DNA of 64,000 bases from Methanospirillaceae archaeon. GTDB lineage: Archaea; Halobacteriota; Methanomicrobia; Methanomicrobiales; Methanospirillaceae. Position 1 is the stretch's first letter; every line of letters begins with the position of its first letter. The position numbers and the translations under genes are program-made. The stretch spans positions 62,001-126,000 of the forward strand of contig JAFGOM010000097.1 of NCBI GenBank assembly GCA_016926505.1. The letters are read 5' to 3'. Below, piece after piece: positions 9,942 through 27,200 of the stretch. The notes beneath the pieces are model-generated. The model did not search any database, was not told the DNA's origin, and saw only the letters and a list, made by a program, of their open reading frames with translations.

Positions 9942-9959
9942 AAGCCCGGATTCGGGCTT
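9942..9959 (-). terminator. Hairpin terminator of the symporter gene
   Basis: A perfect 7-bp stem (AAGCCCG / CGGGCTT) with a 4-base loop overlaps the symporter stop codon. On the minus strand it is followed by TTTTTG and further T-rich sequence, which fits both a stem-loop and a U-tract archaeal terminator. Confidence 0.7.
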
Positions 9960-11529
9960 ATTCCTTTATACCTGATAATGATGGCGGGCAACACCGCCGT
10001 ACAAGCAGAAGAACGCCAAGAACAACGGCCGAGATCGGAAGGCCGATGATAATCGGATCAACGTTCTGCCAGGGCATCGGAAGGACAGCATTTACGCCAA
10101 ATAACGCCTGTGAAATTCCAAGAACCGATGATTCCTTGACATGCACAAGAGCAGTCCAGAGGAACCAGGAGATAGCTCCTGAAAGCAGACTGAGTAACGC
10201 TGCAGTTGTCCAGGGTTTTTTGCTGTAGATTGCATAGAGGAATGCCGGGATAAATGATGCGGCACACAGCCCCATAAAAATGACCGTTGCCCGTGCAATG
10301 ATACTACCGGGGAGGAGATAGGCAACAATCGTGGAAATGATGATCATCACAATTGTCCCGACCTGTATCCCCCGCATTGAGGGATGGATGGTGGTATGGC
10401 GGGAGAAGAGATCATACCCGATGGTTGTTCCCATGGTATGGATCAGTGATGAGAGTGTTGACATCGCTGCTGCAAGCAGGGTCAGCATAAAGATGACAAC
10501 GAAAAAGTCAGGCATTGATGCATTGATATAGAGGGGAATAACAGAATCAACGTTCCCACCGGCGGCCTCCAGTGCCAGTTGTCCGCTCTGCTCCATGAAG
10601 TACACATTGGTGAGAGGACCAACGGTAAAGGCAACTCCAAGCATCATCAGGATAAACGGACCACCGACCATGATTGCCCGGCGAATTGATTTGTCGTCCT
10701 GAACCGTCATAAACCGGACAGCAAGCTGTGGCTGGGCCAGAACACCAATCCCGACACCAAGGACCATGGTTGTTATCATTGTAAGCCATATCGGGGAGAG
10801 GAATTCAGGCATGGAAGCCCAGCCGGTCATTCCTCCGGCTGCAAGTGCTGCCGGAACCATGGATGAGAGGTTATCAAGTGCGGTATTAGCCACGGTCACC
10901 CCGCCAAGCAGGGAGTAGGTGATGATGAGAAGAATAGCCATTCCCACAAACATGATGGCACCCTGGAAAGCATCGGTATACATCACCGCAATCAGTCCTC
11001 CAAACAGGACATATGCGGCTACAACGATCGCAAATGCAAGCAATGAGACATCATACGGAAGTTCCAGTGTTGCTTCGATAAACCGGGCACCACCAATCAG
11101 AACCGCTGCGGTATACAGCGGCATGGACACGATGATGATAAAACCACAAATCTTCTGCATGAATGGTGATTTAAAGCACTTGCCAAAGAGATCAGGGAAG
11201 GTAAAGGCACCCAGTTCCTGGCCGCGGCGACGGGTAGGCCGCCCGAATACAATAAATGCAATGAGGATACCGACACCGATACAAAAAACAGTCAGCCATA
11301 CAAGTCCCATTCCCAGCTGGGCAGAGATACCTCCAAATCCTACGATGGCCGAGGTACTGATAAAGGTGGCACCGTAACTGAGTGCGAGAATGACCGGATG
11401 GCTTTTTCTCCCCGCAAGCATGTAGTCCTCGCTTCCGGCGGTCTTTTTGTATCCATAGTAGCCAAGCGCTAACACGATTACCAGATAGACCAGGGTTACG
11501 ATGGCAAAAATACTGGTATCAACGGCCAT
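9958..11529 (-). CDS. Sodium:solute symporter, SSS family
   Basis: Inner-membrane secondary transporter of 523 residues with about 13 hydrophobic helices. The region near residues 30-60 (SEDYMLAGRKSHPVILALS, then STSAIVGFGG) is the family signature around TM1-TM2. It shares the LeuT-like fold and uses a sodium gradient. The substrate cannot be read from sequence; organic acids or osmolytes are common in this subfamily. The ATG at 11529 lies within the end of the small accessory gene (11-base overlap) and follows GGTGAT. A longer in-frame version would only read through that overlap. Confidence 0.93.
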   Translation of the reverse strand: MAVDTSIFAIVTLVYLVIVLALGYYGYKKTAGSEDYMLAGRKSHPVILALSYGATFISTSAIVGFGGISAQLGMGLVWLTVFCIGVGILIAFIVFGRPTRRRGQELGAFTFPDLFGKCFKSPFMQKICGFIIIVSMPLYTAAVLIGGARFIEATLELPYDVSLLAFAIVVAAYVLFGGLIAVMYTDAFQGAIMFVGMAILLIITYSLLGGVTVANTALDNLSSMVPAALAAGGMTGWASMPEFLSPIWLTMITTMVLGVGIGVLAQPQLAVRFMTVQDDKSIRRAIMVGGPFILMMLGVAFTVGPLTNVYFMEQSGQLALEAAGGNVDSVIPLYINASMPDFFVVIFMLTLLAAAMSTLSSLIHTMGTTIGYDLFSRHTTIHPSMRGIQVGTIVMIIISTIVAYLLPGSIIARATVIFMGLCAASFIPAFLYAIYSKKPWTTAALLSLLSGAISWFLWTALVHVKESSVLGISQALFGVNAVLPMPWQNVDPIIIGLPISAVVLGVLLLVRRCCPPSLSGIKE

Positions 11530-12073: not shown

Positions 12074-12463
12074 TTACCTGATAGCAGTAACTGCCTCGTC
12101 CACGGAATCATACGAGGAGATAACCGTTAAGAACCCGGATAGTTCAAATACCTGTCTGACCGTTCCCGAAAGGGATGAAAGAGCACATCTTCCCTGAACC
12201 TTCTGTAATGCCTTTGCAATCTTGATAACTACCCTGAGTCCTGAACTGGAGATGTAGGGAACAAATGAGAAATCAATAACAATGCGATGCATCCCCTGGG
12301 ATATCCCTTCCATGATCGTTGCTTCCAGATCAGTCGAACTGTCATTATCAATCCGGCCCTCTGGTGCGAATATCCAGACATCACGATAGCATACAACATC
12401 AATGGGAAGCGTTTTTTCGGTAACTTCCTTACGGATAGAGTGGAAAAAAGCTGCATCATCCAT
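12074..12463 (-). CDS. STAS-domain anti-anti-sigma-type protein (second copy)
   Basis: Partner-switching antagonist of the SpoIIAA/RsbV type, with a longer N-terminus than usual (129 residues). The phosphorylatable serine region reads YISSSGLRVV. An upstream segment (IFAPEGRIDNDSS) matches the first strands of the fold. It is the last gene of a four-gene module. The ATG at 12463 follows GGTGAG by 5 bases; a GTG three codons upstream (12472) would overlap the kinase stop as GTGA and is also possible. Archaea lack sigma factors, so the target must be something else. Confidence 0.9.
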   Translation of the reverse strand: MDDAAFFHSIRKEVTEKTLPIDVVCYRDVWIFAPEGRIDNDSSTDLEATIMEGISQGMHRIVIDFSFVPYISSSGLRVVIKIAKALQKVQGRCALSSLSGTVRQVFELSGFLTVISSYDSVDEAVTAIR

Positions 12464-12468
12464 ATCTC

Positions 12469-12876
12469 TCACCGCCTTTTTACAAAGGTAATGATATTGG
12501 TATCCTCCTGCCGCCTGTAGGTAAATGAGTCCATCATCTCCCTAATCAGGTGAACCCCAAGCCCTCCGATAGGCCGGTCCTCAAGATCTCCTTTTGTATC
12601 GGGATCTGCAACCAATGTCGGATCAAATGCACGAGCCTTATCTGAAAGAATGAGGGTAACCTCCTCATCACTCACCAGGCAGCGAACCGCTATCCACCCG
12701 CTTCCCCGGTATCCATGCAGAAACGTATTTGTCAGAGCTTCCTCACAGGATAACTGAATCTGCTGGCTCGTATGTGATTCAATGAAGGCTGCCTCCAGTG
12801 CCTCTCGTACTGCGGTAACGACCGTTGCAACCAGTTCCTCGCCCCCGGAGAGTTCAGCCTCGTATACCTCTTTCAT
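12469..12876 (-). CDS. RsbW/SpoIIAB-like serine kinase (HATPase_c_2)
   Basis: Anti-sigma-type protein kinase that would phosphorylate the STAS partners. The compact GHKL fold shows the N box (EEALTNTFLHG), the D-box strand region ending in a conserved acidic residue, and the G box (GGLGVHLIREMMD). Length (135 residues) is normal for RsbW. ATG 12876 follows the upstream stop and has GGGAG 9 bases before it; the alternative ATG at 12885 overlaps the phosphatase stop region but sits directly on that ribosome site. The gene lies between the phosphatase and the second STAS gene. Confidence 0.9.
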   Translation of the reverse strand: MKEVYEAELSGGEELVATVVTAVREALEAAFIESHTSQQIQLSCEEALTNTFLHGYRGSGWIAVRCLVSDEEVTLILSDKARAFDPTLVADPDTKGDLEDRPIGGLGVHLIREMMDSFTYRRQEDTNIITFVKRR

Positions 12877-12877
12877 C

Positions 12878-14254
12878 TCAATCATCTCCCTTTGCCTTTA
12901 GTACCATAATGGTAATATCATCAAATTGTGGTTCATCTTTGCAAAATCCGGACATTTCCTCTTCTATCTGGCGGATAATCTGGTACGAGGTCATATCTCT
13001 GGATGCACTGACTACCGAGGTCAACCGCTCCAGACCGAACTGCTCTTCGTTCCTGTTAATTGCCTCAGTTACTCCATCGGTATAAAATACAACAATATCT
13101 CCGGGGTGCAGAGTCACCTCATCCTGTTCGTACCCGGTCCCGGTCATGACACCCAGAGCCATTCCGTTCTGGCGGAGATATTCAAACGAATCTGTCTTTC
13201 TCCGGTAAACCAGGGGAGGATTGTGACCCGCATTGGTATAAACCATCCGTTCTCCCATCCTGTCTAAAATACCGTAAAAGACGGTAACAAACATCCCTGA
13301 ATCAGACTCATTGGCGATGATATCATTGGCATCACGCAGGGTCTCAGCGGTTCCCGGATGCCACACGGCAGTAGATCTGACCGTTATCTTTGAGAGAGCC
13401 ATAAAGAGGGCTGCAGGTATACTTTTCCCGGAGACGTCTGCAATGATTAATCCGTGCTTCTGGTTTCCAAAGGGAATGATGTCATAAAAATCCCCACCTA
13501 TCTCCCAGGCCGGAAGGGAGAAAGTGGCAAGATCATACCCGGTTATCGGAGGGATATCTTTGGGGAGAAACTGCTGCTGGATCTCTTTTGCAATCTTTAA
13601 CTCTGCCCGTTTCCGATCCAGTTCACTTTTATACCGATCCCGTTCACCCCGGGTCCGGACCTCCTCGATCCGGTTCTCTGCAATCTTTGCAAAGATACCC
13701 ATCCCGAGGGCATTAAAGAATACAAGGGGACCGGCAACCTGTGAGACGATAGAAACTGCAGTATCCATGTCACTATTGATACACAGTACCAGTATCAGGT
13801 GGAAACATTCGAATAGTGCTGCAAAGAGCACTGCCCACCTGACACTGATCATCTGTCTCTTATGAAGCAGGTAGATAGCACCTCCGGCAAATCCTGAAAT
13901 GCTTGTAGCAATAGTACAGGGAATGGCGGTAAACCCACCGAGACTGAGCCGGTACACGGCACCGATGATACCGGCAACACCACCTACGACCGGACCGCAG
14001 GTAATTCCCGCAACGAGGGGTCCGAGATCCCTGATATTGACCGGGGCACCGAGAATAGCAAACCCTGACATGGTACCGTAGATTGAAAGGGCTCCAAAGA
14101 TGAGAATAAGGACACCATAATCGGTAACAGACCCTTTTCCTTCGTGAACGGTTATAAAAGCCTTCGTCCTCGTGATAAAATAGGCCACAACGATAATGAC
14201 ACAGAGCATCTCAAAGAGATGCAGCCATAGGTCTCCGGTCAGGATAGATGACAT
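12878..14254 (-). CDS. Membrane-anchored PP2C/SpoIIE-family phosphatase (RsbU-like)
   Basis: Likely input phosphatase of the partner-switching module (458 residues). The N-terminal 200 or so residues form about six hydrophobic helices resembling the LytS/YehU 5TM sensor region (GPLVAGITCGPVVGGVAG). A short coiled coil (about 205-235, with KIAKEIQQQFLP) leads into the PP2C SpoIIE domain with metal-binding aspartates in GGDFYDII and IADVSGKS and the C-terminal FYTDGVTEA. ATG 14254 was preferred to a TTG four codons upstream. It would dephosphorylate a phospho-STAS protein in response to an unknown membrane signal. Confidence 0.92.
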   Translation of the reverse strand: MSSILTGDLWLHLFEMLCVIIVVAYFITRTKAFITVHEGKGSVTDYGVLILIFGALSIYGTMSGFAILGAPVNIRDLGPLVAGITCGPVVGGVAGIIGAVYRLSLGGFTAIPCTIATSISGFAGGAIYLLHKRQMISVRWAVLFAALFECFHLILVLCINSDMDTAVSIVSQVAGPLVFFNALGMGIFAKIAENRIEEVRTRGERDRYKSELDRKRAELKIAKEIQQQFLPKDIPPITGYDLATFSLPAWEIGGDFYDIIPFGNQKHGLIIADVSGKSIPAALFMALSKITVRSTAVWHPGTAETLRDANDIIANESDSGMFVTVFYGILDRMGERMVYTNAGHNPPLVYRRKTDSFEYLRQNGMALGVMTGTGYEQDEVTLHPGDIVVFYTDGVTEAINRNEEQFGLERLTSVVSASRDMTSYQIIRQIEEEMSGFCKDEPQFDDITIMVLKAKGDD

Positions 14255-14272
14255 AATGGATCTCAAAAGAGA

Positions 14273-14602
14273 TCAGGCCTTGAGTGCTTCTTCAACGGTA
14301 TCACAGATAACAAAGATTCGTGTAAAACCGGCCAGATCAAAGACCTCATAAACAAAGGGCTTTAAATCACAAAGGATAAGTGAGCCTCCCGTATTCTTTA
14401 ACTGTTTTAATGCAGAGATAAAAACCCTCAACCCGGAACTGCTGATATACTCAACCTGGGAAAAGTTCACGACGATCTTCTTCTCCCCTGACTCAATAAT
14501 CTCCTTTATGGCATCAGAGACTTCAGACGAACCGGTTGTATCTATTCTGCCGGCAATGCGGACCACTACTGCCCCATCTTTCCCTTCCTTCTCTATTTTC
14601 AT
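14273..14602 (-). CDS. STAS-domain anti-anti-sigma-type protein (first copy)
   Basis: First gene of the module, 109 residues, a textbook SpoIIAA/RsbV fold. Strand 2 reads RIDTTGSSE and the switch serine region reads YISSSGLRVF. The start follows CAGGAGATAGT, a strong ribosome site. Together with the downstream phosphatase, kinase and second STAS protein it forms a complete phosphorylation switch. Which of the two STAS proteins meets the output partner is unknown. Confidence 0.93.
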   Translation of the reverse strand: MKIEKEGKDGAVVVRIAGRIDTTGSSEVSDAIKEIIESGEKKIVVNFSQVEYISSSGLRVFISALKQLKNTGGSLILCDLKPFVYEVFDLAGFTRIFVICDTVEEALKA

Positions 14603-24265: not shown

Positions 24266-27200
24266 TTATCCCTGTTTCTCATGAGAATGCGGGATTTCTC
24301 TCCGGTACGATCCTCTCGGTACATGGATCTCAAATCGTGCGCCACTACCATCTCCTGTTTCGGCGATGGTAATAGCGGTGAGAGAAAGGATATCTTTTAC
24401 CAGGAAAAGTCCGAGACCGGTATTTTTTCCATATCCGCGTTTAAATATCAATTCCTTCTCATCTTCAGGAATACCAACCCCGTTATCTTCCCAGACAACA
24501 ACAAGGTCATTGGCAGATTCATTGGCAGATACCCGGATCTCATGTACCCGTTCACCATGCCTGAGTGAATTGTCCAGAAGGTTTGAGAAAACCTTGCCGA
24601 GCATCGGATCAGCATAGATACAGAAATTTTTGAGATCCCTGAAAATCGTAAGTGAGTGAACCGGAGAGGGAGGGATAACCGTATCCAGAGCGATCCACTG
24701 TGGTTCCTGGGAACCAAGGTTCTGGTAAATCCGGGTAAACATGATATGAGACTTAATCTCTTCATTTGCGTTCCGTATTCTGGCAAGATAATCTGACAGG
24801 ACAGGATCGTTACATTCCACCTCTGCGATATCAAGAAACCCGGATATGACCGAGGTCTGGTTCAGGATATCATGCCGGGTTATGGTAGTAAGCAGGGTTA
24901 TCTGCCGGTTTGCCTGACGAAGAGCTTCTTCAATTCGTTTCAGGTCGGTAATATCCTGGTTTGCCCCATGGGTCTTGATTGTTCTTCCATCTGCATCCTT
25001 GGTAACCCTGATACGCACACATATGTTTCTTACCTCCCCATCCCTGCGGATAATCCGATGCTCCACGTAGGAGACATAATCAGGATCGGTTGTCTCCAAT
25101 GCTTTTTTTGTCTCTATCGCAACCAGGTGTGAGTCTCCCGGATAAACGAACTCTCCTGCATATATCTCTGCCGGCATCAGAGTCCCTCCTTCCTTCTCAG
25201 CGGTAGTTCCATACAGTGCATAGAACCGGTCATCAAATGAGAACATCCCTGAATCGACATCATACTCCCAGTTGACAATTTTTGCCAGATCCATCGCCTC
25301 GGCAAGTTTTGACTGGCTCTCTTTGAGAACCTGTAAAATCCGTTCCCGTTCGATCTCAGCTGCAGCTTTTACTGCGACAATATCAATGATATCCCGGATT
25401 GCAGGAGATGTTTTGATGGAATCCTGAAAGAACATACACAGAATTCCGATAATCTGATCCTGGGAATTTTTCAGAGATGCCCCGATAAACCCACGGATTT
25501 TATTCTTCTGGATTTCGGGATTATCAGGGAAGAGATCTGCCATATTATCTTCGTATATACAGAATCCCTTCTCTACAACATCTGCGTACGGAGTTCCTTT
25601 GAGGGGACATAAGAGATCACGGATCTCCTGTCCGGAAGACAGCATAAAAAGAACCTTTACCGTTTTTTGATCCGGCTGCAGCTCGCCTACCATAGCAATA
25701 TCAGCGTGTAACCAGGAACTGATACTCTCAATAATTTTCTGGAAAGATTGCATCCCGGTTGTTCCAACCATGCTCCTGACCAGTGTCTCGAATGCAGCCT
25801 GGGTGGTTTTGCGTTCCGTAATATCCTGTATAGACGAGAGTATGATTGGTTTTCCTCCCATCAGCAGGAATGATGTTGAGAACTGACAGATCCGAATCTC
25901 TCCTGAAGATGATCTGACCGGGATCTCCATACCTGATACTTCCCTGTGGTCCTGAAGTACTCTCACGATCTGATGATATGTCTCAACATCGGGAAATAAG
26001 CCCAGGGTCTCTGATGTACTGCCGATAACTTCATCCCGGGAATAACCGGTATTGCTGATGAATGCCTCATTCACATCGATAAAAACACCATCAACTGCAG
26101 AAACCAAAGCAAGAGCGATGGGGCTGTGCATAAATATGGCAGCCATCTTCTGTTCAGACTCCAAAAGAGCATCTAAAGTCTTTTTCTGCTCTGTTATCTC
26201 ATGAATGGAAAGAAAAACCGCAGGAACACCGCGATATCGAATCTTTTTTCCCGTACTCTCTATCCAGATCATCCGCTTATCCCGGGTTACAACCTCAAAG
26301 ATTTCATGAAAATCATCTGCTCCCAACTCAACACGTCTCAGTCCATTGACAAATATTTCACGGCACTCAGACAGAACAAAAGAGAACAGATGAGAGGTTC
26401 CTACCAGGTCAGAAACCTCGTTATAAGAGAGGATCTCCCCGACTCGCGGATTTGCAAAGAGAATCTTCCCGGTAAAATCGGCAATAATGATACCGTCAAG
26501 GGACTGCTCAACCAGGGTCCGGAACTTCTCCTCACTCTCCTGTAACTCCCTCTCCACCTTTTTCTGTGCAGATAAATCAATTACAATTCCACGAATCCCT
26601 GCAACCTTGCCATTATAATAAAAAATCGAAGGATAAATGCGAATGGGGAGGGTAGTTCCATCCTTTCGCATGGCAAGATATATTTCCGGCTCATACGGGA
26701 TCCCGTTTAATAACATCTGAAAATTGTCCCTGATAATCTCATGAAAAGAGGGGTGGATACATGATAGGGCTGATATCCTGTTGCTGATATCCTGCGAGGT
26801 GATACCCATGAGGGCACGTCCGAATTCATTAAGATAGGTAAGATTCATATCCGGATCCACCTCAAAGACCATCATGGGCAGCATCCGGGCGATTGAGCGA
26901 TACCTCTCTTCCCTCTCCCGTAACTCAATATCAGCCAGTTTTTGTTCGGTTATATCCCGTAATGAGGCGAGGATCATTTCAGAGTCCTGATACGGGATCT
27001 TTCTCCCGAGGCTTTCCACCCATAACTCCCGTTTTTTAGCCGTAATCAGTTTATACTGTGAGAGATACCCATCCATCCCCTGCCCGATCGTATGCATGTC
27101 AGATGTTATTGTTCTGACAGAATCAGGGTGAATATAGTCCATGATGTTCTTCCTACCGATAACTGAATCAAAATCCTCTTCATCTATCATGGAAAGACCG

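Follow-up and report, generated by a model that had tools for sequence, protein, structure and literature searches.

An RsbU/V/W-type partner switch in a methanogen of the order Methanomicrobiales without a detectable sigma factor: a metallo-beta-lactamase protein and NCS2 permeases as candidate partners

What does a partner switch of the bacterial type act on in an archaeon that has no sigma factor for it to release? The question is raised by a four-gene operon in a stretch of 64,000 nucleotides from a Methanospirillaceae archaeon (contig JAFGOM010000097.1), hereafter called the window. A sequence-only reading had described positions 12074–14602 as a complete STAS, PP2C, kinase, STAS set with a LytS-type membrane sensor on the phosphatase, and had proposed a transcription factor, a transporter or the histidine kinase encoded at 24266 as possible outputs. 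The present analysis upheld the parts list, the sensor and the missing sigma factor and lent support to the transporter, whereas the transcription factor and the histidine kinase lost ground. The basic finding, a switch without a sigma factor in Methanomicrobiales, has been known since 2009, because Anderson et al. (PMC2686161) reported the anti-sigma, anti-anti-sigma and serine phosphatase proteins of this order, pointed out that the sigma factor is missing and named no target. The apparently new part is a pair of candidate partners, and neither of them is a transcription factor.

The genes of the operon and the features discussed below are listed in Table 1. All four lie on the minus strand and are read from 14602 to 12074 in the order STAS1, PP2C, RsbW, STAS2. 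The genes for PP2C and RsbW overlap by 8 nt and those for RsbW and STAS2 by 4 nt, and STAS1 ends 6 or 18 nt ahead of the PP2C start, depending on whether TTG 14266 or ATG 14254 is chosen; the latter, behind GAGA, is more likely. Based on these overlaps and the short gap, the four genes were assigned to one operon. As the operon core was found again in many relatives, the arrangement is not due to chance.

Table 1. Position, strand and supporting matches of the features discussed in the text
Feature	Position in the window	Strand	Evidence
STAS1, RsbV/SpoIIAA-like antagonist, 109 aa	14273..14602	-	PF01740 2e-25; TIGR00377 above cut-off; aligns to SpoIIAA 1th8_B
Candidate phosphoacceptor Ser55 of STAS1 (YISSSG)	14438..14440	-	aligned with SpoIIAA Ser58
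Membrane PP2C, RsbU/SpoIIE type, 462 aa	12878..14266	-	PF07228 (SpoIIE) 3.6e-47; PF07694 1e-36
5TM-5TMR_LYT sensor region of PP2C, residues 42-198	13673..14143	-	PF07694 1e-36
RsbW-type GHKL serine kinase, 138 aa	12469..12885	-	PF13581 (HATPase_c_2) 4.2e-22; aligns to RsbW 6m36_A
STAS2, 132 aa, N-terminal extension of ~20 aa	12074..12472	-	PF01740 6e-20
Candidate phosphoacceptor Ser76 of STAS2	codon 12247-12245	-	aligned opposite SpoIIAA Ser58
Symporter small accessory protein, 49 aa	11519..11668	-	NF045580 3.2e-13, above cut-off
SSS-family sodium:solute symporter (ATG 11529)	9958..11529	-	PF00474 1.1e-48

Pfam matches, active-site residues and gene overlaps together confirmed the set of four as complete. 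Both candidate phosphoacceptor serines were located by alignment to solved structures, and a serine at the position of Ser55 is kept in most archaeal STAS copies. The phosphatase contains all four metal-binding Asp motifs (GGDFYD 257, ADVSGK 276, YTDG 395, and FDD 448). The kinase has the N-box residues E49 and N53, D82 and the GGLG stretch at 107–110, and retains the invariant columns of the RsbW alignment. With a phosphorylatable-type serine in STAS, GHKL boxes, a SpoIIE-type PP2C and a single operon, the locus has the hallmarks of an RsbU/V/W module except for the cognate sigma factor. The LytS-type sensor region was borne out by its Pfam match; the output domain attached to it is a PP2C and not a histidine kinase. 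The scores stayed below the cut-offs of the NCBIfam equivalogs for SpoIIAA, SpoIIAB, SpoIIE, and RsbW (TIGR02886, 72.4 and 51.7 versus 114.75; TIGR01925, 32.3 versus 135; NF003144, 42.3 versus 145; TIGR02865, 29.5 versus 490.8).

The host is a methanogen of the order Methanomicrobiales, with mcrA in a genome of 2.94 Mb (99.97% complete, 0.55% contamination). No Sigma70 region 2 (Sigma70_r2) was detected in this genome, and the same search was positive in 10 bacterial control genomes; the archaeon had thus been correctly described as being without a sigma factor. Of 199 genomes analyzed from this order, just three gave a Sigma70_r2 match, and only one of them, a draft of 85% completeness (G122), also encodes RsbW. 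RsbW was present in 119 of the 199 genomes and a SpoIIE-type PP2C in 121; the same genes are found in the named relatives Methanoregula, Methanolinea, Methanospirillum, and Methanofollis. In a tree resting on few columns and with many unresolved forks, archaeal RsbW clustered mostly in a single group that also took in three bacterial sequences. Searched with the archaeal RsbW profile, the genome of the window gave a single strong match, the RsbW of the window itself. A second, very divergent RsbW-like ATPase (L060, 15533–16003) adjoins a ClpB-like gene in the same genome; the permease operon described below is about 7 kb away. Three more SpoIIE-type PP2C genes in G000 (contigs 24, 34, and 46, the last near a contig end) had no STAS or RsbW neighbor in the stretches read.

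The switch of the window is the Methanomicrobiales system of Anderson et al. (2009). It shares with the SpoIIAA/SpoIIAB/SpoIIE-like sets Memar_2467-2469 and Mlab_1450-1452 (PMC2686161) the three core proteins, the order of archaea and the missing sigma factor, but adds a second STAS gene after rsbW; no target is proposed in that paper. Its statement that the system is confined to the order is no longer valid, as switch genes (L230-L233) were also found in further families of the phylum. The Bacillus RsbU/RsbV/RsbW switch of sigma-B likewise combines a PP2C, a STAS protein with the aligned serine and a GHKL kinase. In contrast, the switch in the window has no sigma factor and a 5TM-LYT membrane domain as sensor, and fails to reach the NCBIfam equivalog cut-offs for RsbW.

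The check for conserved genes near the operon in relatives, as recommended by the sequence-only reading, was carried out on neighborhoods selected by RsbW or permease matches; the genes of the relatives were called with a simple ORF caller, and several of the genomes are drafts. Among the genes up to five positions from rsbW at 63 archaeal loci, the most common one outside the core encoded a protein of ~585 aa (32 loci). It has a metallo-beta-lactamase (MBL) domain with the full HxHxDH-H-D-H metal set, the ligands being invariant, and its model (pLDDT 86.7) gave Foldseek matches to MBL enzymes. The C-terminal half resembles the ATPase domain of the kinase (GHKL) in its modeled topology. Actual relatedness of this half to RsbW was discarded, since the profile comparison was not significant (probability 2–5%) despite the GHKL-like modeled secondary structure. 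In four loci, the MBL gene directly follows STAS with a stop/start overlap. Both the MBL protein and RsbW were found in 95 of the 199 genomes, RsbW alone in 24, the MBL protein alone in 3 and neither in 77 (Fisher p = 1.6e-29, a value that ignores shared ancestry, related genomes not being independent). The three genomes with the MBL protein but without RsbW are all less than 90% complete. Of the 95 genomes with both, 47 have the MBL gene no more than 6 kb from rsbW. In the genome of the window, the ortholog is encoded on contig 45 (20358–22064), unlinked to the switch.

These neighborhoods also bear on the outputs suggested before. An archaeal transcription factor (TFB or another regulator) that is encoded elsewhere and held by RsbW, so that transcription would be controlled as in bacteria, fits the classical logic of the module, and targets need not be linked, as even the MBL gene lies apart from the switch in the genome of the window. 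However, no such family recurred within five genes of the 63 archaeal rsbW loci, whereas MBL and STAS-fusion proteins did, and we regard this explanation as unlikely. The histidine kinase at 24266 was not recurrent beside rsbW either; it lies 10 kb away and looks like an ordinary REC-PAS-HisKA hybrid kinase.

The transporter, in contrast, gained support from an NCS2 permease that has an RsbW-like tail and is part of the switch operon in related genomes. In the genome of the window, contig 65 carries an operon of NCS2 permease, STAS and PP2C (LYT), in which no kinase is encoded. The permease domain (PF00860, 9.3e-55) is followed by a C-terminal RsbW-family domain: the last ~130 residues matched the RsbW profile over their full length (hhalign E 1.1e-9, probability 96), all 23 unrelated families used as control remained at E > 0.04, and the reverse search with an HMM of the tail recovered RsbW proteins at E-values down to 6.6e-11. 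Kinase activity of the tail is improbable, because the ATP-site residues Asn and Asp (equivalent to N53 and D82) are lost in 21 of 21 permease tails.

The operon context of the permease varied. It is the first gene of a permease-STAS-PP2C-RsbW operon in three genomes (G102, G138, and G134) and the last gene of a STAS-PP2C-RsbW-permease operon in G381, with a divergent MBL gene beside it. Permease, STAS and PP2C occur together in G180, G008, and G469, as on contig 65, and permease and PP2C in G155 and G432. All 25 genomes of the order with a tail permease also encode RsbW (p = 8e-7, uncorrected for shared ancestry), and switch genes adjoin only about one third of the tail permeases inspected within this order. 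The window itself contains no gene for the permease or the MBL protein, and the permease, too, is unlinked to the switch in this genome. Tail permeases were also found in 2 of 22 bacterial genomes, away from switch genes. In the genus that holds the Methanoregula relatives, an MBL-only protein adjoins the permease in G139, G172, and G174; the one such protein tested (293 aa) reached the cut-off of the ODP (di-iron, oxygen-binding) family. In another archaeal family, an 811-aa protein in which STAS is fused to TCAD9 (PF19974) adjoins a tail permease (L229, 1255–3690). No relevant report of a permease with an RsbW tail was found in the open-access literature, subscription journals being outside the scope of the search.

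We tentatively favor the reading that the operon encodes an RsbU/V/W-type switch that controls, at the post-translational level, proteins other than a sigma factor, with the MBL protein and the NCS2 permeases as the best candidates; this appears plausible, if a little short of probable. From the genes, residues, tail homology, linkage and co-occurrence, we infer phosphorylation, binding and an effect on transport as follows. The 5TM-LYT membrane domain would sense a signal and switch on the PP2C, which would remove phosphate from Ser55 of STAS1 and probably also from Ser76 of STAS2. RsbW would re-phosphorylate STAS with ATP, and unphosphorylated STAS would swap partners between RsbW and other proteins. 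The permease tail could bind STAS as a decoy kinase and should not phosphorylate it. The RsbW of the window may serve the operons in the window and on contig 65 alike, as it is the only strong RsbW in the genome and the operon on contig 65 has no kinase. In its most specific form, the switch would gate the transporter directly, the phosphorylation of STAS deciding between the true kinase and the dead RsbW domain on the nucleobase permease, with the MBL/kinase-like protein as second partner; this version is possible, leaning toward the improbable.

The MBL protein could also serve as input instead of output. It might, for instance, sense redox state or oxygen and thereby modulate STAS or RsbW, the true output being another protein; the complete metal site of the MBL domain and the ODP match of the related protein beside the permease are consistent with such a role. 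On the other hand, a membrane sensor is already provided by the PP2C of the switch, and we consider an input role rather doubtful. As output, the SSS symporter encoded on the same strand about 0.4 kb downstream of the operon is highly improbable: it probably forms a unit of its own because it has its own small accessory protein, it carries no regulatory tail, and it does not recur as a neighbor of rsbW. The gene for the accessory protein is the first of this unit, just ahead of the symporter gene. Long branches of the window's RsbW and STAS2 would suit a horizontally acquired relic without present function, but this is very hard to reconcile with the retention of all catalytic residues and gene overlaps, the presence of the module in 119 of the 199 genomes and the largely single group formed by archaeal RsbW.

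The favored reading, post-translational control of partners other than a sigma factor, has parallels in bacteria. SiaABCD of Pseudomonas (PMC8457831), SypA/SypE of Vibrio, and Btr of Bordetella (PMC8256260) likewise apply STAS, kinase and PP2C to a non-sigma target, and SiaC directly binds and activates an enzyme. There, the targets are a diguanylate cyclase or type III secretion, whereas we propose a permease with an RsbW-derived tail and an MBL protein as partners. SulP/SLC26 transporters are also regulated via partner-switch domains. In those proteins, however, the transporter carries the STAS domain, while here the RsbW side is attached to the permease, and STAS is a protein of its own. 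Two named candidates turn the target question of 2009 into one that can be tested with a few purified proteins. If the permease reading is true, a partner switch would act directly on transport, and a signaling module would have been retained by a lineage without its usual target.

A third element was found in relatives and is absent from the window. In 17 of the 63 archaeal loci, a STAS protein with a C-terminal domain of ~310 aa adjoins rsbW, directly so in L041, L074, L086, L127, and others. The fold of this domain is acetolactate-decarboxylase-like (Foldseek E 2.8e-9, TM to target 0.63), its residues H369, H371, and H404 (HxH...H) are invariant, and it is also encoded next to switches in Aminicenantes, Lentisphaerae, and a proteobacterium. 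STAS2, which takes the same position, was considered as a remnant of this fusion and rejected: a tblastn search of the window with the C-terminal domain gave no hit, and STAS2 did not group with the fusion.

STAS1 and STAS2 are STAS-only proteins with no RsbR-type sensory N-domain, which sets the switch of the window apart from an RsbRST stressosome. A separate RsbR-RsbS-RsbT-like cassette with an additional HATPase protein, the latter with a weak PP2C match, was observed in relatives (L055, 5101–7741; L056, L057, and L058). Its proteins of 279, 129, 131, and 333 aa make up a stressosome-like set in archaea.
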